A stretch of 64,000 nucleotides of DNA, taken from the NCBI GenBank assembly GCA_020723325.1, contig DYJD01000031.1, positions 1 to 64,000 of the forward strand, in the 5' to 3' direction. The translations under genes and the position numbers were made by a program. Origin of the DNA: Desulfosudis oleivorans (lineage in GTDB: Bacteria; Desulfobacterota; Desulfobacteria; Desulfobacterales; SURF-7). The notes under the pieces were generated by a model. It did not search any database. It worked only from the letters and a program-made list of their open reading frames with translations, and was not told the DNA's origin. Shown piece by piece: positions 1 through 7,745 of this stretch (its first letter is position 1; every line of letters begins with the position of its first letter).

Positions 1-79
1 GCCGTAATAAAAATTGCTGCCTGACGATGGGCAGTGTAGTTTAATAAGCGCTTACATTTTAGTTACTTTCACCGAATGC

Positions 80-379
80 ATGTGTCAATATTTTGATGAT
101 CTTAATCTTTCTGACGGTTTGCAATCTGCTGTTCATGAAGGCTGGTTGAACAAAGATGAAGCTGAGATTATGTCAGAATTTCATGAATTGGCGCTAAAAT
201 ACCATCCGACTATAAACAGAGATCAAGACGTGTTAGATGATCCCGAATGGAATGACATCGTAAGAGAAGCACAAAAAACCTGGAAAGCTTTGAGAACACA
301 TTTGACAGATAAAACAGAACTTGAGTTAATGAATGAATTGGAACAACAGTTTGAAGTTGCAAATAAAAGCGACAGCTAA
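80..379 (+). CDS. Uncharacterised protein of an integron-type gene cassette
   Basis: A 99-residue acidic, soluble protein that I do not recognise. It has no membrane segment and no cysteine motif, and looks mostly helical. The reading frame is open back to an ATG at 14, but the ATG at 80 gives a more natural N-terminus (MCQYFDD); neither start has a clear ribosome binding site, which is common for cassette genes read from an upstream promoter. The stop codon (377-379) lies inside the left core of an attC-like site, the arrangement expected of integron cassettes. The left end of the cassette is not identified and probably lies before the window. No function can be given. Confidence 0.55.
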   Translation: MCQYFDDLNLSDGLQSAVHEGWLNKDEAEIMSEFHELALKYHPTINRDQDVLDDPEWNDIVREAQKTWKALRTHLTDKTELELMNELEQQFEVANKSDS

Positions 380-460
380 CCAATCGCTGGACGGGGCCAC
401 GAGTAACTGAGCGGCCTTTTTCAATTGCTGTGGCGCGGCCCGTCAGTTCAAGCGTTCGCT
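374..460 (+). other. attC-like integron recombination site (cassette 1)
   Basis: An 87-bp imperfect inverted repeat. The left core is AGCTAAC (374-380) and the right core GTTCGCT (454-460), preceded by CAGTTCAAGC, which matches the usual L' box of attC sites. Internal arms GACGGGGCCAC and GTGGCGCGGCCCGTC pair with small bulges, as in single-strand-folded attC hairpins. The core bases deviate from the GTTRRRY consensus, so this is a probable site and not a certain one. Confidence 0.65.
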
Positions 461-497
461 GTCTAATTTGGATCAATTGGGTAATTTTTAAAAAGAA

Positions 498-1301
498 ATG
501 AAACGGATTCTTCTACCTATTTTACTCCTAATTTTTTACCCAACTGTAGTCCTTTCTTTGCAGGAGCAAAATCCTAATGGCTATGTTCATCTCTTTGATA
601 AATATGATTTTAATAAGGGTAACTACTCCATTGTCGGTATAGTATGGCACGATCAACGCCACGAACTTCAAAAAACGATTGGGAATTTCTACATCGATGA
701 TATTCAAGTCCTAAATGAAATAAAAGATAGTTGGATAACTGAAAAGCCAAGCCCATTTTATGCTTGCGGTTATCATTTTGGTATTTTTGTAATTCAAGAT
801 GGTTATGAGATAGAATCATTCTTTATAAATGTTGAAAAAGACTGCAATACGGTTGTAACGGAATACGGACAATTCTATTTTGATCCGAGCAAAATACGAA
901 TGCTTAAGGATAAATTCAAAAAGCCTGTCCTAAAAAGGATGCGTTTTAATTCATGCCAAGAAGGCCGTAACTATATAAACGCGTTGGATAAGAATAACAA
1001 ATATTTGATGTATCTCAAACCAAGATGGATAAACTATGATGGTGAATTCCGTTTTTATATACATTGTGATCAAATCGAATTCGATAATCCTGTTTCACAA
1101 CAATGTTTAAATAGCGCGAATGACAGAATTTCTAAAATGTTTCCTAAAGAATTATTTGTTTTGGAGCAGTCAGGTTCTTCAAGTGGTCAGATATTAATTA
1201 CAATGAAATGTAAAAAGGAATTGTATGACAAATTTGACCTTTATAAAATTGATTGGAAATGGAGTGATTATTTACCTGAATTAATGGTGTTGTTCAAATA
1301 A
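498..1301 (+). CDS. Exported protein of unknown function, integron cassette 2
   Basis: A 267-residue protein with an N-terminal signal peptide (positively charged MKR, then a hydrophobic stretch to about residue 20) and no later membrane segment, so it is probably periplasmic or secreted. It contains several cysteines (around residues 90, 116, 153, 190 and 204) that could form disulfides. I do not recognise the family. Its base composition is much more AT-rich than the housekeeping genes of this window, which fits recent acquisition. It is the only gene of the cassette 455-1434, whose 5' bases TTCGCT are the exact reverse complement of the AGCGAA in its own downstream attC. The ribosome binding site is weak. 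Confidence 0.7.
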   Translation: MKRILLPILLLIFYPTVVLSLQEQNPNGYVHLFDKYDFNKGNYSIVGIVWHDQRHELQKTIGNFYIDDIQVLNEIKDSWITEKPSPFYACGYHFGIFVIQDGYEIESFFINVEKDCNTVVTEYGQFYFDPSKIRMLKDKFKKPVLKRMRFNSCQEGRNYINALDKNNKYLMYLKPRWINYDGEFRFYIHCDQIEFDNPVSQQCLNSANDRISKMFPKELFVLEQSGSSSGQILITMKCKKELYDKFDLYKIDWKWSDYLPELMVLFK

Positions 1302-1313
1302 ATGTAAAAAATC

Positions 1314-1440
1314 AGCGAACCAACAATTCTACCAGAGCGCTGAGGCCCGTAGCATTTTTGAAATTCGTTGCTTCTCGAAAAATTCTTTCTTTTTATAGTC
1401 TTTCGGCAGCCCCTGCGCCTTAGTGAACTGAGCGTTCCGG
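1314..1440 (+). other. attC-like integron recombination site (cassette 2)
   Basis: The left core AGCGAAC (1314-1320) is the reverse complement of GTTCGCT, the core at the left edge of this same cassette. That is the relation expected when a circular cassette is inserted between G and TTRRRY. The right core is GTTCCGG (1434-1440), preceded by a TGAACTGAGC L'-like box. Inner arms (AGAGCGCTGAGGC and its partner GCCCCTGCGCCTT) pair imperfectly around a loop of about 60 bases. Confidence 0.65.
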
Positions 1441-1536
1441 GATGTCGAAATTCGTATTTATAGAGCGAGCACTACGGCTATCATTCTGCCACTCAGAGCC
1501 ACAGCCCAAAAGTGCACAATAGCTTTTTCATTCTGC

Positions 1537-1692
1537 TCAACAGGTTTGATAAAAATTCAACCAAGATCCGCCTATGATAACCCCATGTTTTTTCAACTTA
1601 GTTTCTAACGTACCGTAGTCCGGTGCCCTCCCATGCATCCCGGCATGGTGCCTCACATTTTTACGCATCATTTCAGCCAGTGCGTTACCCAC
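1537..1692 (-). CDS. Small basic protein of 51 residues, unknown function
   Basis: A short open frame starting at GTG 1690-1692, preceded by AAAGGGAG. The product is basic and histidine-rich (VRHHAGM near residues 13-19), with PDYGTLETKLKKHGV in the middle and GGSWLNFY near the C-terminus. No domain is recognised. It reads away from the toxin-antitoxin pair and lies in the first stretch after the last visible attC site. Its leader contains a CCC-GAAA-GGG hairpin that overlaps the ribosome binding site and is repeated, without an intact gene, at 2440-2470. The protein-like composition and good ribosome binding site support it, but its length makes this a moderate call. Confidence 0.45.
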   Translation of the reverse strand: MGNALAEMMRKNVRHHAGMHGRAPDYGTLETKLKKHGVIIGGSWLNFYQTC

Positions 1693-1694
1693 GG

Positions 1695-1725
1695 CTCCCT
1701 TTCGGGTATTTAGTTTTCAAAGAGC
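1695..1725 (-). repeat. Leader repeat, copy 1
   Basis: A 31-bp element matching 2440-2470 at 27 of 31 positions. On the minus strand it reads GCTCTTTGAAAACT, then a small CCC-GAAA-GGG hairpin that includes the ribosome binding site of the 51-residue gene ending at 1537. The two copies flank the toxin-antitoxin module in direct orientation. Confidence 0.7.
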
Positions 1726-1789
1726 AATAGACTGTCAAAAAATAACTCGTTGCTTCCATCATAGCCGATTGGCCATTGATTTATTGGTT

Positions 1790-1816
1790 CTTGTGAATTA
1801 CAATGTAATACACAAG
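1790..1816. promoter_or_regulatory. Probable operator of the RelB/YafQ-type operon
   Basis: An inverted repeat, CTTGTGAATTAC-AAT-GTAATACACAAG, with 11 of 12 arm positions paired. It sits directly before the ribosome binding site (AAAGGAG, 1817-1823) of the antitoxin gene. RelB/DinJ antitoxins usually repress their own operon by binding such palindromes; binding here is inferred. Confidence 0.6.
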
Positions 1817-1829
1817 AAAGGAGATTGTT

Positions 1830-2093
1830 ATGGCTGCAAATGCAATAGTCCAGGCCCGTATTGATAAGGTTGTCAAAGAAGAAGCCGCCGCCGTTTTGGC
1901 TGCAATGGGATTGACGGTATCGGACGCAGTACGCTTGCTGCTGACCCGTGTAGCGCGCGAGCATGCCTTGCCATTTGACCCGTTGATTCCGAATGTAAAG
2001 ACGATTGAGGCGATGAAAGAAGCTCGTCGTGGTGGATTGAAATCATTCGATAGCATCGGCTCGTTGATGGCGGACTTGAATGAGGACGATTGA
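1830..2093 (+). CDS. RelB/DinJ-family antitoxin
   Basis: An 87-residue protein with the N-terminal ribbon-helix-helix typical of DinJ/RelB antitoxins: a short strand with ANAIVQARID, then helices with AAAVLAAMGLTVSDAVRLLLTRVA. The C-terminal half (FDPLIPNVKTIEAMKEARRG) is the toxin-wrapping segment seen in the family. It should neutralise the toxin encoded immediately downstream and repress the shared promoter through the palindrome at 1790-1816. The start ATG has a good ribosome binding site (AAAGGAG, 6-nt spacing). The gene overlaps the toxin start by 14 nt, implying coupled translation. Confidence 0.9.
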   Translation: MAANAIVQARIDKVVKEEAAAVLAAMGLTVSDAVRLLLTRVAREHALPFDPLIPNVKTIEAMKEARRGGLKSFDSIGSLMADLNEDD

Positions 2094-2361
2094 ACGCACC
2101 GGCCAATTCAAACGGGATTATAAGCGCGAAATAAAAGGACCGCATCGCGCAACGTTGGAATGCGACTTTATTGAAATATTAACGTCACTGGCGAATGATA
2201 TCCCGCTGACCGAAAAGCACCATGACCATGCAATGACCGGCAATTGGAAAGACCATCGGGATTGCCACATCAAGCCGGATTTGGTGCTGATCTATCGGAA
2301 ACCCGATGCTGAACGTTTGCAACTGGTTCGAATTGGTTCGCACTCGGAACTTGGTCTGTAA
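2080..2361 (+). CDS. YafQ/RelE-family mRNA-cleaving toxin
   Basis: A 93-residue protein of the RelE superfamily, YafQ branch. YafQ enzymes are ribosome-dependent endoribonucleases that cut mRNA in the ribosomal A site. Family landmarks are present: the FKRDYK N-terminal helix, HHDHAMTGNWKDHRDCHI with catalytic-type histidines and the W, PDLVLIYR, and the C-terminal GSHSEL with the last active-site histidine. The length is normal and no key residue is missing, so it is probably active. It follows the antitoxin with a 14-nt overlap. Modules like this are common in integron arrays and integrated elements, where they stabilise the DNA. Confidence 0.9.
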   Translation: MRTIERTGQFKRDYKREIKGPHRATLECDFIEILTSLANDIPLTEKHHDHAMTGNWKDHRDCHIKPDLVLIYRKPDAERLQLVRIGSHSELGL

Positions 2362-2439
2362 CAGAAGAAACGATGGTAATTTGTCTTTCCAATTCCGTCC
2401 TTTCAAAAAACGTATCATTAGACAATATGTTCCCCCATA

Positions 2440-2470
2440 CTCCCTGTCGGGAATTGAGTTTTCAAAGATC
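2440..2470 (-). repeat. Leader repeat, copy 2 (no intact gene behind it)
   Basis: The second copy of the 31-bp element at 1695-1725, same orientation. On the minus strand the hairpin is TCCC-GACA-GGGA and is followed by ATGGGGGAACA, but the frame stops after six codons. It therefore looks like the leader of a lost or decayed relative of the 51-residue gene. Confidence 0.6.
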
Positions 2471-2501
2471 CGATGTAATGCCGAAAAAGGTTATATGCAA
2501 T

Positions 2502-2978
2502 TTAATCTTTCAAAGCATTTTTGAATTCCTTAGCTGTCAAACCTGATCCTGCCGCCAACCGAGCAAACATTTTGTCATATTTATGCGACTCCCGGCAGCT
2601 CTGATAGGTCAGGTGCTGGCATGTCCGGCACTGGAAATATTTTGAACCCGGTGCACTGTAAAGTTTCATTGCCTGTCTGCTGCATCTTGGACACAGGAAA
2701 AAATATTGAACGCCGCCGAAAAAAGGGAGCTTGCGGACCAGTTGAACCTCGTAATCGATTTGTTCGGTTTTCCGCCAGGTGTAATACAGCCGGACATATT
2801 CATCCGCCAAATTGAGCTGATACCAGATGGAAGCGGTCGGCGTTCCACATCGTGACCAGGTTAATAAACCGCTTGTGCGCCGTTTATTCCGCACCAGGTA
2901 ATTGACATCCAGCGCTAATGAATCTTCAACGGTGAAATTAAAAGCCCATGGCTGTCTCCCGGAACCATAACCGCCCAT
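2502..2978 (-). CDS. Mobile-element-associated zinc-ribbon protein (GGYGSGR type)
   Basis: A 158-residue protein beginning MGGYGSGRQPW. This belongs to a family of hypothetical proteins often found in bacterial integrated elements (recalled from general knowledge, not searched). The N-terminal part is basic and aromatic. A probable zinc ribbon lies around residues 96-120, with FFLCPRCSR followed by YFQCRTCQHLTY, and then a helical C-terminus. Its role is unknown; DNA or RNA binding is a reasonable inference from the zinc ribbon. The next gene on this strand (ending at 3739) lies about 760 bases upstream. Confidence 0.7.
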   Translation of the reverse strand: MGGYGSGRQPWAFNFTVEDSLALDVNYLVRNKRRTSGLLTWSRCGTPTASIWYQLNLADEYVRLYYTWRKTEQIDYEVQLVRKLPFFGGVQYFFLCPRCSRQAMKLYSAPGSKYFQCRTCQHLTYQSCRESHKYDKMFARLAAGSGLTAKEFKNALKD

Positions 2979-3738
2979 AATAACCTTTCAGGTTTTCCTA
3001 AATATGTTACAAAAATGTAATTTTAATTTTCACTATTTTTTAAATATTATATTGTTATTATTGATTTTTATCAAATTCCGCCATGTGACACCTGACAAAA
3101 AATGTTTCTGAATGTTTACGTTGACGTTAATTTTGAAACTGATGCTTATTTTCGCTTGACCGACCCTGTACTATAAGATTGAGGTTTCAGGAAGGCATCC
3201 AGGGTCACAAGGTTACCTTCCATCCACCTAAAGCCTTATCCCAGCGCTCGGGATCACTGAACAAGGCAAGCCGCGATATCCTCTTCATTTCTCCCTTTCT
3301 CTGTCTGTCCGCTCGGTGCCTTTTTTGCTGGATCTGCTGCTTGATCGGCAAAAGCGATTGACTGAATCGCCGAAAATCCAAATTTTTCTGTCCGGTCTGC
3401 TGACCACCCGGGAGCCGCCGCGCTGAAATGGCCCTGGTTGGTTCGTCGGGTGGTTGATTCCGCCTTGCGCTGGTTTCGGCTAAAATGATGAGGCTGAAGG
3501 TTTGAATCCTGGCTCGGGAAAAAATCCTTGGACATATGGTATATTATATAAATACTTTGATCCATCAAAGCCAGAGGCACAAAAACGGCTTTCAGGTCAT
3601 CTATTCGGCTAAAGGCTTTAACCGGCTCGTGTTTGCTGCGATTTTGACTCATTTTTCCTGGCTTTGACCCATCAAAGCGAGAATATTTTGAAAATCCATT
3701 TTGTGTTTGATGCATCAAAGCGAGCAGGCTTTGACCCA
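2979..3738. other. Gene-free 760-base stretch with a palindrome cluster
   Basis: No convincing gene is seen. The first 200 bases are AT-rich and could carry the promoter of the zinc-ribbon gene. Open frames here (for example 3254-3832 minus) have unnatural composition and overlap the palindromes. The right part, 3555-3744, holds four CTTTGA-N4-TCAAAG-type palindromes described separately. Confidence 0.5.
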
Positions 3739-3744
3739 TCAAAG
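3555..3744. repeat. Four-copy palindrome cluster, possible iterons or operators
   Basis: Near-identical 16-bp palindromes lie at 3555-3570, 3662-3677, 3705-3720 and 3729-3744. Each has CTTTGA and TCAAAG arms (one base off in copy 3) around TCCA, CCCA, TGCA and CCCA. Copies 2 to 4 are each followed by CGA. The last copy contains the stop codon of the adjacent minus-strand gene. Such spaced repeats next to a probable DNA-binding protein suggest an origin or multi-operator region. Confidence 0.7.
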
Positions 3745-4185
3745 CGATTTTTGTTTTTTGAAGCCGATGCCATCCGGAAGCGATCTGTTGATTTCTGTCT
3801 TCTGATACTCGATTGTCCCATATCTTTTCCATCGCTGGCTGATGCTGTATTTAGTCGGCTGTTTCAAATACCAGTTGCCGGGAACGGCAATATCAATGAA
3901 GCCTTTTTCTTCAACCAATTCACGAAGCACCCGGTCGAAGGTTTGGGAAGATTTAAGTCCGAGTTCTTTTGCCTCTGAAAAAGTAAAAATAATTTCGCCG
4001 TTGTTGGTTATGACAAGATCCTTGATTCCCTTTTTCTTTTTGGCATTCTTCCGGTGTGCTTTCTGATGGAATCGGATAAGGCAAACAATTGCCGCTTTGC
4101 CGGATAAGTCCATAAAGGCATCACTTTCAATTAGTGCCGCTTCGAGCATGCAGAAACTTCGGTTAACAAATTTGCGTTTTTTCAT
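3739..4185 (-). CDS. Probable winged-helix DNA-binding protein of the element
   Basis: A 148-residue basic protein. It starts MKKRKFVNRS, has a helical N-terminal part (DLSGKAAIVCLIRFHQKAH), then IIFTFSEAKELGLKSSQTFDRVLRELVEEKGFIDIA, which reads like a winged helix with its recognition helix, and a basic C-terminus. I do not recognise a named family. Similar proteins sit in integrated elements of deltaproteobacteria, where they may act in replication or control (inference). Its 3' end runs into the palindrome cluster, making it the best candidate to bind those sites. The start ATG lacks a strong ribosome binding site. Confidence 0.6.
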   Translation of the reverse strand: MKKRKFVNRSFCMLEAALIESDAFMDLSGKAAIVCLIRFHQKAHRKNAKKKKGIKDLVITNNGEIIFTFSEAKELGLKSSQTFDRVLRELVEEKGFIDIAVPGNWYLKQPTKYSISQRWKRYGTIEYQKTEINRSLPDGIGFKKQKSL

Positions 4186-4230
4186 TCACCCATACCAAAG
4201 GTATTGCCGCTTTAAAAAGTGTTCGGGAAA

Positions 4231-4271
4231 CCTGCCGGAACCTGGCAGGAAACCGGCCGGAACGTCCGGTT
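4231..4271 (-). terminator. Two adjacent GC-rich hairpins, possible terminator
   Basis: CCTGCC-GGAACCT-GGCAGG (4231-4249) is followed by AACCGG-N9-CCGGTT (4251-4271), just past the stop of the HTH gene at 4279. There is no clear U-tract, so intrinsic termination is uncertain. Confidence 0.35.
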
Positions 4272-4278
4272 GAATATC

Positions 4279-4506
4279 TTATTCCTTCCCGACTGATCCT
4301 TTGTTGAGAATCATTCTTTTGCTTGAAATAAATTGCAGGACATCCGGGACAAGATAAATCCGGTCCCTATGGGAGATCTTGCAGAAAGGAAGACCTTCAT
4401 CATGCCTCAATCGATCTAACCCGGCCTTTTTGATGCCGAGCAGGTCTATCAATTCTTTTTCGGTCAAAATATCGTTCATGCTTTGGAGCTGGTTTCCGTT
4501 GCTCAT
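4279..4506 (-). CDS. AlpA/excisionase-like helix-turn-helix protein
   Basis: A 75-residue protein with one winged-HTH of the AlpA/excisionase (HTH_17) type: LTEKELIDLLGIKKAGLDRLRHDEGLPFCKI, then RIYLVPDVLQFI, the usual strand and helix that close this fold. Members act as excisionases or transcription activators of integrase genes. The start ATG is preceded by AGGAAAGG with good spacing. It overlaps the preceding zinc-finger gene by 107 nt in another frame, an unusually long overlap, but both proteins look real. Confidence 0.75.
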   Translation of the reverse strand: MSNGNQLQSMNDILTEKELIDLLGIKKAGLDRLRHDEGLPFCKISHRDRIYLVPDVLQFISSKRMILNKGSVGKE

Positions 4507-4717
4507 TTTCGTTTTCCTTTCCTAAAAAAATTTCAATCGCTCTTGCCTTCCGTGAAAGTCCTTTGGCAAGCGCTTTCCGATATGCGCGTTCCAGATCCGC
4601 CGGATCTGCCATAAGGAACATTTGCACGCATGTACTACAAACAAAGTCAGACCCAGGCGACGGCCGGTAGCTCGGTTCATTACATCCGCAAAAAAGGCAT
4701 CCTTCGGTTTGCATCAA
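4400..4717 (-). CDS. Small zinc-finger protein of the element
   Basis: A 105-residue protein with a four-cysteine N-terminal finger, CLFCGCNEPSY then FVCSTCVQMF (residues 7-35), followed by a helical part (ADLERAYRKALAKGLSRKARAIEIFLG) and a very basic tail. The fold suggests nucleic-acid or protein contact; no function is known to me. It lies upstream of the HTH gene on the same strand and overlaps it by 107 nt. The basic tail encoded in the overlap may be under little constraint. Its position between a BRO-type antirepressor and an AlpA-like protein points to a regulatory role in the element. Confidence 0.6.
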   Translation of the reverse strand: MMQTEGCLFCGCNEPSYRPSPGSDFVCSTCVQMFLMADPADLERAYRKALAKGLSRKARAIEIFLGKENENEQRKPAPKHERYFDRKRIDRPARHQKGRVRSIEA

Positions 4718-4762
4718 TAATTACCCTTTATTCATTTTGGTTCCGTCAATTTTAAAGGTGAT

Positions 4763-4785
4763 CCGGCCGGTGATATTCCGGCCGG
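4763..4785 (-). terminator. Perfect CCGGCCGG hairpin after the BRO gene's upstream neighbour
   Basis: CCGGCCGG-TGATATT-CCGGCCGG forms a perfect stem-loop in the gap between the zinc-finger gene start and the BRO gene stop. It could terminate BRO transcription or act as an RNA processing signal; there is no clean U-tract. Confidence 0.35.
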
Positions 4786-4819
4786 TCCCTTGCTGCTGGT
4801 CATGCCTGATAGACATCCA

Positions 4820-5593
4820 TCAGGCCGCCGACTTGGTTTCAGGTTTCAGCAGGTCCAAAACCGACCGTTTCCAAAACAGTTGCTGAACAGGTGTCCCGTC
4901 GGAATGTCGCTTTCCAGTATCTTTTGAAACAGCATATGGCATCCCTTTTTCCGTTGGTTCCCATCTGATCCGTTTCTTGTGGTCCCGGTGGTCGATCTGA
5001 AGACCAATGCTTTTTAGCAAATGGTTTACCTTGACGGGTGATATACCGAGTTCCATCCCGATATCGGAGGGTGTCATGTGCATCTCATTATCATCGGCGA
5101 TTAGATGCGTGGTTCCGATCAGTTCCAGACAATCAATGCTGTACAGATGCCGTATTGCATGGTTGGCGGAAAGCAAGGCTTGATTCCCTTTCAAACCGAA
5201 GCAGTGAGTTAGTTTGATAGCGGATTCCGCTTCCAGTTGAAGAAATGCAAAGGTCAATTTTCTGTCTGGAATAAACATGCCGGTCTTACGAATGGCAGGG
5301 AGCACTTCATGGGTAATCCAGCGTATGAAGTGCTTTGCTTCGGGTTTGTTAGAACGAATTATCAGGGTGTAAAGTCCGGCTTCGTTGACAAGCCAGACTT
5401 CACGATTTTGACCTGATATCGGTAAAACCGATATCAGCTTTTCATCATCATCCAATCGTGACATTGCATCTGCAACGTTGTTGATGTCAAGAAGGCTGCA
5501 AACATCCTTCGCAATCCACCACAGCTCACCGTTTTCATCCTGAACCATACGAATGTCATGGGTTTCAAATTTTCGTAAAATGATTTCGTTCAT
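4820..5593 (-). CDS. BRO-family phage antirepressor
   Basis: A 257-residue protein with an N-terminal Bro-N domain (about residues 1-105): GELWWIAKDVCSLLDINNVADAMSRL, then EVWLVNEAGLYTLIIRSNKPEAKHFIRWITHEVLPAIRKTG, the hallmark run of the family. The C-terminal part (NEMHMTPSDIGMELGISPVKVNHLLKSIGL, then EPTEKG) resembles a KilA/antirepressor-type HTH with a terminal ligand domain. Such proteins override phage repressors. The start chosen (MNEIILRKF) has an AGAGG ribosome binding site; an upstream in-frame ATG at 5630-5632 would overlap the neighbouring gene. It follows the AlpA-like gene closely. Confidence 0.85.
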   Translation of the reverse strand: MNEIILRKFETHDIRMVQDENGELWWIAKDVCSLLDINNVADAMSRLDDDEKLISVLPISGQNREVWLVNEAGLYTLIIRSNKPEAKHFIRWITHEVLPAIRKTGMFIPDRKLTFAFLQLEAESAIKLTHCFGLKGNQALLSANHAIRHLYSIDCLELIGTTHLIADDNEMHMTPSDIGMELGISPVKVNHLLKSIGLQIDHRDHKKRIRWEPTEKGMPYAVSKDTGKRHSDGTPVQQLFWKRSVLDLLKPETKSAA

Positions 5594-5598
5594 CCTTT

Positions 5599-5787
5599 TT
5601 ACCTCTCGGCTTTTTGATGTTTTTCCAACCAAGGAAGAACCTGAGACAATCTGAAACGGTTATACTTGCCTACTGGAAGCCGAGGGATTGCATCAGATCC
5701 GGTCTGTCGTGTTTTTGAATAAATCCAAGATTTTTTAACCTTTAAGTGGTCTGCCAACTCATCAACGGTTAAAAGTTTTTCTTCCAT
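5599..5787 (-). CDS. AlpA/excisionase-like DNA-binding protein
   Basis: A 62-residue protein made of one HTH_17-type domain: LTVDELADHLKVKKSWIYSKTRQTG, then IPRLPVGKYNRFRLSQVLPWLEKH. This is the standard excisionase/AlpA layout with the beta wing (RLPVGKYNRF). It is the first gene of the leftward BRO transcript and has a strong AGGAGGT ribosome binding site. Its promoter lies in the repeat-rich divergent region 5788-5954, which probably also serves the rightward ribbon-helix-helix gene. It could be an excisionase or the activator of element genes. Confidence 0.8.
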   Translation of the reverse strand: MEEKLLTVDELADHLKVKKSWIYSKTRQTGSDAIPRLPVGKYNRFRLSQVLPWLEKHQKAER

Positions 5788-5822
5788 AGAAACCTCCTTT
5801 TATGGGAAAAAGTTAAAGACAT

Positions 5823-5940
5823 ACAATACATGTTGTATAATATATTACATGTATACAATATATGTGTCAATATGAAAATGTATTGTAAAATATAACACGT
5901 GATGATATATAAATTTGCATGCTGATAACACAATACATAT
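5823..5940. promoter_or_regulatory. Divergent control region with ACAATACATGT repeats
   Basis: Four related sites lie in the 167-base AT-rich gap between divergent genes: ACAATACATGT (5823-5833), ACAATATATGT (5855-5865), ATGTATTGT (5878-5886, inverted) and ACAATACATAT (5930-5940). The last abuts the ribosome binding site of the rightward gene. They are probably operators for the ribbon-helix-helix protein or the AlpA-like protein. Confidence 0.55.
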
Positions 5941-5954
5941 TTGGAGGTGGAGGT

Positions 5955-6485
5955 ATGGCAGCTACAAAAAAAGGTGGTGGAGGAAAATTATCACGATCTG
6001 AGGTCGTTACGATTAGACTTGATCCAAAGCTTAGATTTGCAGCAGAACTGGCAGCAAAAAAACAAAGGCGAACGCTTTCGAGTTTTATTGAGTGGAGTAT
6101 CGAACAATCAATTCAACAAGAGGCAGTTGCATATGATACTCACGATAATCGTATCACCGCCTATGAAGCGATGAATTCTGTTTGGGATGTGGAAGAATCT
6201 GATCGCTTTATCAATCTTGCCTTTATGTTTCCTGAACTATTGAGTTTCGATGAAGAAAAGCGATGGAAATTGATTAAAGAACATCCATATTTCTTTTTGA
6301 TAGTTAAGCGATCACACAATAACTATTTATCTTGGGAAAAGTGCCCAATGAATATTGACAATAAGAAGGTTAGAGAATGTTGGAGTCTCTTAAATAAAAT
6401 TCTTTCTGGCGAAGCAGATGAAGATGCAATTCCACCAGTTTCACCCGGCCAAATAACTGAAAAAGATGAGGGTGTTCCATTTTAG
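5955..6485 (+). CDS. Ribbon-helix-helix protein, possible element repressor
   Basis: A 176-residue protein. After a lysine/glycine-rich start it carries a CopG/Arc-like ribbon-helix-helix at about residues 15-50 (SEVVTIRLDPKLRFAAELAAKKQRRTLSSFIEWSIEQSI). The remainder (EESDRFINLAFMFPELLSFDEEKRWKLIKEHPYFF) is helical and unknown to me. The start ATG at 5955 has a GGAGGTGGAGGT ribosome binding site; an upstream in-frame ATG (5919) is less likely. It is transcribed away from the AlpA-BRO genes across a shared control region, the layout of a repressor versus antirepressor switch. A terminator follows. Confidence 0.7.
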   Translation: MAATKKGGGGKLSRSEVVTIRLDPKLRFAAELAAKKQRRTLSSFIEWSIEQSIQQEAVAYDTHDNRITAYEAMNSVWDVEESDRFINLAFMFPELLSFDEEKRWKLIKEHPYFFLIVKRSHNNYLSWEKCPMNIDNKKVRECWSLLNKILSGEADEDAIPPVSPGQITEKDEGVPF

Positions 6486-6521
6486 TGAATTGTATTATAC
6501 AGGAATATTCAAAGACTAGGG

Positions 6522-6545
6522 AAGGCGGTTATCCTGCCGCCTTTT
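6522..6545 (+). terminator. Rho-independent terminator
   Basis: AAGGCGG (6522-6528) and CCGCCTT (6537-6543) form a perfect stem around an 8-base loop, followed by a short T run, 37 bases after the ribbon-helix-helix stop codon. Confidence 0.75.
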
Positions 6546-6799
6546 CGGGTCACGATCCCAATCCCTGGTAAAATGCGGGTTTGCGGTGAATCCGGCTTAA
6601 AAATATTCGGCCGGATTCATATTCAATTAACTGAGAAGCCAATAAAAAAACCTTCCACAAGTTGCTACCATTTTGCAACCATAATTACAAAAAACAAGAA
6701 AAACCATAAAAGGTCAATGTTAAAATAACCTACTGCCTTCATGTGATATTTTTTTATCCTGATATATCTTCATATCCCTTGTTTTTCTGCTTGGGCAGT

Positions 6800-6841
6800 T
6801 TCCTAATCCATGTGCCGCGTGTTCGATTCACGCCGGGGGCA
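6800..6841 (+). other. tRNA-Arg(CCU) 3' half: attachment-site scar
   Basis: The sequence reads as the exact 3' part of a tRNA: anticodon loop TTCCTAA (6800-6806), anticodon-stem strand TCCAT, a 5-base variable loop, a T arm GCGTG-TTCGATT-CACGC (6817-6833), acceptor strand CGGGGGC and discriminator A (6841). The 5' half is missing: the bases before 6800 do not pair with TCCAT. This is what the distal attachment site of a tRNA-Arg(CCU)-targeting element looks like. The whole tRNA should lie to the left, outside the window. The rest of 6546-7037 holds a GAATCCGGC/GCCGGATTC hairpin (6588-6618) and no gene. Confidence 0.8.
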
Positions 6842-7037
6842 CTCATGATAACAATTGGTTAGATAAATCAAATATTCTCTTCAGTCGATCTTGTGTGAGA
6901 AACCGTGTGAGACTTTTTTCGTGACAACCTCATTTCCTCATTTTCCGTACCAAAGGGGGCGTAAGTCGTGTCACAGACCTGCCACAAAGATTAACCCTTT
7001 TTCGCAGGCCAACTCGTTACCCAATTCATTACCCAAT

Positions 7038-7660
7038 TCAATCGACATTACTCAATTGCCAGTTGTCGGTTTTTTGCCAACGGGCATTCTGGCCGCGTCC
7101 AAGGCACTCAATCTGATCTTTTGCCCGCAGGTTCTTCAGCACCCGGCGAACCATATCCACGCTGACGTTCGGGCACTTGTTCTGAATTTCCGTCACGCTG
7201 AAAGAACCGAGAGCACTGTCGATGGCGTGAAGAACGAGACTCGTTTTCTCACCCTTGGGGCTCTGAAGTTGGCCGAGGCGTTGCTCGAATTCCCGATAGG
7301 CCATCTTGATGATGGAAAGAATGTAACTGATGTATGGCCAGGGATCATGTTTGCCCTCATGCCAGCCCTGGGAGCTTTGCTCCAAGGTTTCGTAATACCG
7401 GTCCTTGTGCTGTTCGATGAGGCGCTCCAGGCTGATGTGCCGTCCCATCTCGAATCCCAGGTGGTAACATTGCAGGAGCAGAAGCAGCCTTGAAACACGA
7501 CCGTTGCCGTCACGAAACGGATGGATGCACAGAAAATCCAGGTTGAAGGCGGCTAAAAGGACAAGCGGCGGGACTTTGCGATCCTTGATGGCATCGTCGT
7601 ACAATTCGACCAGATCCTTTGGTTCTAATGCGTTTATGGACCAGAGACACTCGGACCGCC
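7038..7660 (-). pseudogene. Fic-family protein, N-terminally truncated
   Basis: The frame encodes the C-terminal part of a Fic protein: LVLLAAFNLDFLCIHPFRDGNGRVSRLLLLL carries the HPFxxGNGR catalytic motif that transfers AMP or a similar group to target proteins, and the last ~80 residues look like the winged-helix tail of Fic/DUF4172-type proteins (TEIQNKCPNVSVDMVRRVLKNL). Full-length members have roughly 100 or more residues before the motif; here homology ends at about SECLWSINALEP and the frame runs on into an IS-like end (7660-7745) that supplies an unrelated start. Inactivation by insertion or deletion is the likely history. Confidence 0.7.
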
Positions 7661-7745
7661 GGTTAAAGATTGACCCACCTTCCGCCGGAAATCTGACCCA
7701 CCTGACCGGAATTCCAGTTTTCAAATTCCCCTTGAAAAGGTAGAC
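7658..7745. mobile_element. Solitary IS21-like terminal segment
   Basis: Two tandem units related to GACCCACCTTCCGCCGG (around 7677-7693) and GACCCACCTGACCGG (around 7697-7711) follow CCGCCGGTTAAAGATT. Repeated GACCCACC/CCGG units of this sort are typical of the ends of IS21-family elements (family knowledge). No transposase gene accompanies them. Confidence 0.5.

Follow-up and report, generated by a model that had tools for sequence, protein, structure and literature searches.

A conserved palindrome array beside a small winged-helix-like protein: a probable iteron-type replication origin on satellite-like islands of Desulfobacterota

The window, by which we mean the entire 64,000-nucleotide stretch of Desulfosudis oleivorans DNA analyzed here, carries a minus-strand gene (3739-4185) for a 148-aa winged-helix-like protein, recognized from its open reading frame, a family profile and the PHROGs matches of other family members, and proposed here to be a minimal replication initiator. 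Four sites of the palindromic motif CTTTGA-N4-TCAAAG, one of them with a single mismatch, lie across 3555-3744 at the 3' end of this gene. A motif scan of the window places exact CTTTGANNNNTCAAAG matches at 3555-3570, 3662-3677 and 3729-3744 and a one-mismatch version at 3705-3720, which bears out the four palindromes of the initial annotation; the 190 bases over which that annotation called them nearly identical are the spread of four near-identical 16-bp sites, not a length of identity. We number them as candidate iterons in gene-strand order, with no strand assigned to the palindromes themselves. Iteron 1 (CTTTGATGGGTCAAAG on the gene strand, 3729-3744) spans the stop codon (3739-3741) and the last codon of the 148-aa gene, confirming the overlap with the gene end noted earlier. 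Iteron 2 (CTTTGATGCATCAAAC, 3705-3720) is the mismatched copy and is centered 24 bp from iteron 1, iteron 3 (CTTTGATGGGTCAAAG, 3662-3677) follows after 43 bp, and iteron 4 (CTTTGATGGATCAAAG, 3555-3570) after another 107 bp. Iteron 4 touches an A/T-rich box (TATTTATATAATATACCAT on the gene strand; 3536-3554, minus strand), our proposed strand-opening region. Allowing up to two mismatches, the window yields eight matches against a shuffle mean of 3.9; since loose matching alone is not significant, the significance of the array rests on its exact matches and on comparison with relatives. A transcription terminator was considered and rejected, since three of the sites lack a T run and the remaining one has it on the strand opposite the 148-aa gene.

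Five neighboring genes are also encoded on the minus strand. A 75-aa HTH_17/excisionase-like protein (4279-4506) and an overlapping gene for a 105-aa protein (4400-4717) are neighbors shared with the loci C41, G010 and G001. They are followed by a BRO-N anti-repressor-like protein (4820-5632; Bro-N, E=9e-24; phrog_130 anti-repressor, E=8e-48) and an AlpA-like HTH_17 protein (5599-5787; HTH_17, E=2e-6; phrog_66 excisionase/regulator). On the downstream side lies a GxGSGR zinc-ribbon protein (2502-2978), found with 5/26 family loci; in several elements, L027 (1610-2275) among them, its family again lies near the module. The right flank of the element holds a Fic-domain protein (7038-7724) whose start looks truncated. 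We found no recognizable integrase near the window copy and no convincing att sites around it, so this copy may be a decayed or dependent element. The earlier designation as an integrative element thus holds for relatives, which reside in integrase islands with tRNA repeats, but the window copy itself is without a recognizable integrase.

How specific is the array to this locus? Across the 7.2-Mb genome there are seven exact copies of the motif, three in the window, three at C41:10894-11083 and one stray on C64, while the motif read backward, used as a control, does not occur at all. The 190-bp array is present at exactly two genomic places, 100% identical to each other, and belongs to an 836-bp block of initiator gene, iterons and box (3529-4364, no strand assigned) that is 100% identical to the C41 copy. 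Beside this block, identity between the two copies is about 64-91% per 100 bp, and the BRO/AlpA region is lower still. A RelB/YafQ toxin-antitoxin stretch (window 1500-2300) is also 100% identical in both copies amid diverged sequence; a RelB/YafQ-type pair adjoins both module copies, at window 1830-2361 and L006 8804-9335. The C41 copy adjoins a truncated integrase and the 3' end of tRNA-Val, an intact tRNA-Val lying on another contig, and given these remnants it looks like a decayed integrated element. A separate feature of L006, at 1-7180, is a set of six copies of a repeat of about 70-112 nt (GGAGCAATGTGCATCATTTT...), separated by about 1-2 kb that hold small genes, and with an integrase-like ORF at 4140-4688; this region resembles a gene-cassette array.

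A profile of the protein family detects members in 22/291 genomes of the order and 16/345 of the phylum (E<=1e-6; the two draws overlap slightly), and one viral contig, L091, also carries a member. The initial annotation had suggested that linkage of the palindromes to the protein and conservation of their spacing in related elements would support a functional array, and both were found. A repeat of at least 12/14 is present within 190 nt at the gene 3' end in 37 of 41 distinct loci, as compared with 3/41 for a control stretch of equal length inside the gene of the same loci. The best offsets of the 37 loci fall at 22-25 bp (21 loci), 33-34 bp (5), 43-45 bp (8) and 58-59 bp (3), and no others occur in the 18-60 bp range; they correspond to the distances between sites 1 and 2, 2 and 3, and 1 and 3 of a single grid. 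The sequence of the repeat varies from locus to locus while the spacing stays. The closest relatives, whose proteins are 61-65% identical, have the same array spacing with other site sequences: CTTCGATAGAGCGAAG at 24, 43 and 105 bp in G010, CTTTACTGGGGTAAAG at 24, 44 and 106 bp in HyVt-363, and CTGTTATAGAAAACAG at 23, 42 and 104 bp in G252, the fourth site being inverted in the latter two. In distant members the first interval is 24-25 bp, the second about 34 or 43 bp and the third about 95-107 bp; some of these arrays have a weak third or fourth iteron, or one that the script missed. The repeats stand within the reading frame in some members and past the stop codon in others, which places the constraint on the DNA and not on the protein. 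At L074 the whole array and its box are flipped together with respect to the gene (sites at 135, 160, 190 and 285 and box at 314 of the reversed stretch), which makes the array a cis module that does not depend on the direction of the gene.

The box next to the array recurs as well. An A/T-rich stretch ending in ACCAT or a close variant abuts iteron 4, itself often inverted among relatives, in at least 28 loci, which were chosen by eye and then confirmed in the sequences. Over the 16 nt before CCA, A+T content is 62-94% across loci, reaching 94% in the window and only 62-75% in several members. In most of these loci a box profile exceeds the 95% level of shuffled sequences, but it was trained on these very regions. 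DnaA boxes are present at only three of the loci examined.

What kind of protein is encoded beside these sites? Among 25 family members, seven match a PHROGs DnaD-like helicase loader (best 2.4e-7) and six an O-like replication initiation protein (phrog_678, E<=0.01; best 7.9e-5), and there are further matches to other PHROGs replication initiation proteins and to a replisome organizer. The window protein itself has no PHROGs match, so that the replication matches come from other members, and its score against RepA_N (PF06970) is 12.6 bits, below the Pfam gathering score of 30. Matches of the family to solved structures are weak and include two DnaD-type entries (E 0.16 and 0.47), and in an hhalign comparison the DNA-binding regions of the family and of lambda O align co-linearly in a weak match (E=0.096). 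An AlphaFold model built from three sequences was unusable (mean pLDDT 38), and the winged helix is therefore read from the sequence pattern. Protein searches of phage, plasmid and viral-contig collections returned no close relatives of the window protein, and a search of the accessible literature found no paper on the family.

The main rival to an origin is a set of transcriptional operators, in which a regulator would occupy the four palindromes, a promoter would read away from the gene 3' end and the A/T box would be its -10 region. A winged-helix-like protein would suit this role, some members have weak matches to regulator profiles including MarR/SlyA, and the box contains a TATAAT-like sequence in the window and in HyVt-363. 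However, other members do not keep this -10-like sequence, iteron 4 is free of overlapping promoter matches on the gene strand, and the genes after the box differ among elements. Motif scans of the window and genome found no sites upstream of the 148-aa gene, which speaks against autoregulation, and the module can stand inverted to its gene. Moreover, replication profiles are matched more often than regulator profiles. Considering these remote matches, the lack of upstream sites, the inversion at L074 and a site position like that in lambda and the PICIs (phage-inducible chromosomal islands), we regard operators as unlikely. Of the two functions that the initial annotation had offered for an unnamed integrative element or satellite, replication iterons or multi-operators, replication is thus favored; the general idea is supported by linkage, conserved spacing and the joint diversification of sites and protein described below.

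Within a locus the sites resemble one another with a mean identity of 0.86-0.89, as against 0.44-0.65 between four related loci. A paralogue pair in G034 captures such a change: the DNA between the sites is nearly identical, and all four sites are altered alike, from ACGAAAACGTAACC to ACGTAAACGTACCC, the inverted fourth site having taken the same form as the other three. The two proteins differ by Q to H (TQPRL vs THPRL) where the putative recognition helix begins. The DNA encoding this helix also holds a cluster of substitutions, so a recombined segment is possible. The concerted change of sites and helix fits a protein and binding site that co-evolve, short of proving that the protein binds there. 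Lineage-specific palindromic repeats with a predicted cognate DNA-binding protein would fit a centromere or copy-control locus as well, to which the protein would bind for partition or incompatibility with no replication start. We consider this very improbable, as no ParA/ParB-like gene occurs among the genes scanned near the sites, the elements are integrated, the PHROGs matches indicate replication and an A/T box adjoins the sites.

The relatives are found in small integrative islands. An integrase lies near 14 of 26 family loci, many of them on short contigs, and three relatives reside in complete, tRNA-flanked islands of 5.8-9.6 kb with an integrase: L058 (9,637 bp, 45-bp repeat at tRNA-Met), L056 (8,248 bp, 53-bp repeat at tRNA-Arg) and L055 (5,812 bp, 54-bp tRNA-end-like repeat). 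L058 encodes an integrase, an AlpA-like protein, the initiator with its iteron array, a large terminase (TerL), a protease-capsid protein and a portal, and no tail gene was recognized in it. L067 has a small terminase and a capsid gene, HyVt-363 a capsid gene, and G273 combines a tyrosine-type integrase (PF00589), AlpA, the replication module, att repeats and capsid/packaging genes in one island. Searches with Pfam and PHROGs recognized no helicase, loader or primase in the islands examined, and the scanned genes of L055 and L056 include no Pfam helicase or primase. The islands are satellite-like in anatomy, which suggests dependence on a helper. The proximity of integrases could alternatively mean that the palindromes are accessory sites used in integration or excision by the integrase together with the protein. 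In the complete islands, however, the sites are deeply internal and separated by thousands of bases from one or both of the tRNA att repeats, and the island ends have subterminal repeats of their own, leaving this explanation scarcely credible.

Taken together, the position of the sites 3' of an initiator domain, their fixed dyad geometry, the A/T box, the replication-type protein and the small integrative islands favor an origin. We infer from these sequence features a probable theta-type replication origin with the palindromes as its iterons and the 148-aa protein as its minimal, lambda-O-like initiator, carried on satellite-like islands. The protein would dimerize on each dyad, and dimers on iterons 1-3 at the gene 3' end would contact a further dimer that occupies iteron 4 at a distance of about 105 bp. 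This complex would open the adjoining A/T-rich box, after which a host or helper-phage helicase would be loaded. As the protein ends soon after its DNA-binding domain, it is expected to provide recognition and not helicase or primase activity. Lineage-specific iterons would stop cross-replication between co-resident elements. In relatives the module sits on small integrase-based islands, some of them with packaging and capsid genes like capsid-forming satellites.

The proposed module would work like the lambda origin or that of the Vibrio cholerae satellite PLE, but we file it as a member of neither. The lambda ori has four imperfect-dyad iterons directly after the coding region of the O N-terminal DNA-binding domain, spaced 20, 24 and 23 bp, with an A/T-rich tract beside the last iteron (PMC7466680). 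The likeness lies in dyad iterons that adjoin the coding region of a DNA-binding domain and in the tract by the last of them. O, however, also has a C-terminal domain, and the gene for the helicase loader P comes next, whereas here the protein ends at 148 aa, lacking the loader-binding part, and a Pfam/PHROGs scan of the window neighbors of its gene found no P-like gene. In addition, iteron 4 stands apart by about 105 bp, often in inverted orientation, the iteron sequences are unrelated and the profile similarity is weak. PLE RepA has an N-terminal fold of RepA_N/DnaD type, binds semi-palindromic iterons and has no predicted helicase or primase activity (PMC7145576); it resembles our proposed initiator, which would likewise lack these activities and has palindromic sites beside its gene, dimeric binding to them being predicted. 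PLE has a large serine recombinase, whereas the present islands have tyrosine integrases, and the RepA_N score falls short of the cut-off.

Gram-negative PICI origins sit just 3' of rep (PMC6092414). PICIs and cf-PICIs share with the island of the relative G273 the order of int, AlpA and initiator with the proposed origin just 3' of the initiator, along with att repeats and capsid/packaging genes; around the window copy neither an integrase nor convincing att repeats were found. They differ in that their initiator is of the Pri-Rep primase-initiator type and their A/T region lies between two iteron sets, where we see a lone winged-helix-like initiator and a 3+1 layout; no Pri-Rep-type primase domain occurs in the genes scanned. 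PICMIs are likewise very small islands with a tyrosine integrase and AlpA (PMC10803314), but they have a primase gene and sit by fis, whereas the present islands lie in tRNA genes with no recognized primase.

Dozens of related elements repeat this layout, the site sequence being particular to each, and they therefore appear to form an undescribed family of mobile islands within one phylum. Most described phage satellites come from Enterobacterales, Vibrio and Gram-positive cocci, and almost none of this family appears in phage, plasmid or viral-contig collections. A replication module recognized by its geometry, not its sequence, offers a means of detecting such islands elsewhere, in other phyla. 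We lean slightly toward a broader proposal, that these are phylum-wide islands or satellites with a fixed 3+1 iteron origin and a stripped-down winged-helix initiator that brings no replication enzyme, in which iterons and recognition helix switch in concert so that several elements can co-reside without cross-talk. The natural pairs of protein and site variants allow tests of joint specificity change of initiator and iterons, and of whether a bare DNA-binding domain suffices to start replication.

Viral contigs were scanned with sub-family profiles, the broad family alignment being too diverse for that scan, and gave one match, L091, where iterons occur at 24 and 34 bp and a terminase is encoded. 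On this 7,072-bp contig the module accompanies a gpA-type terminase and a large portal-like gene, and full phages may therefore carry the module as well. Two divergent family members occur together in G201, which matches HyVt-363 (on C269, L072, and C273, L053), and likewise in G080 and G127; such pairs are consistent with co-resident elements of different iteron type.
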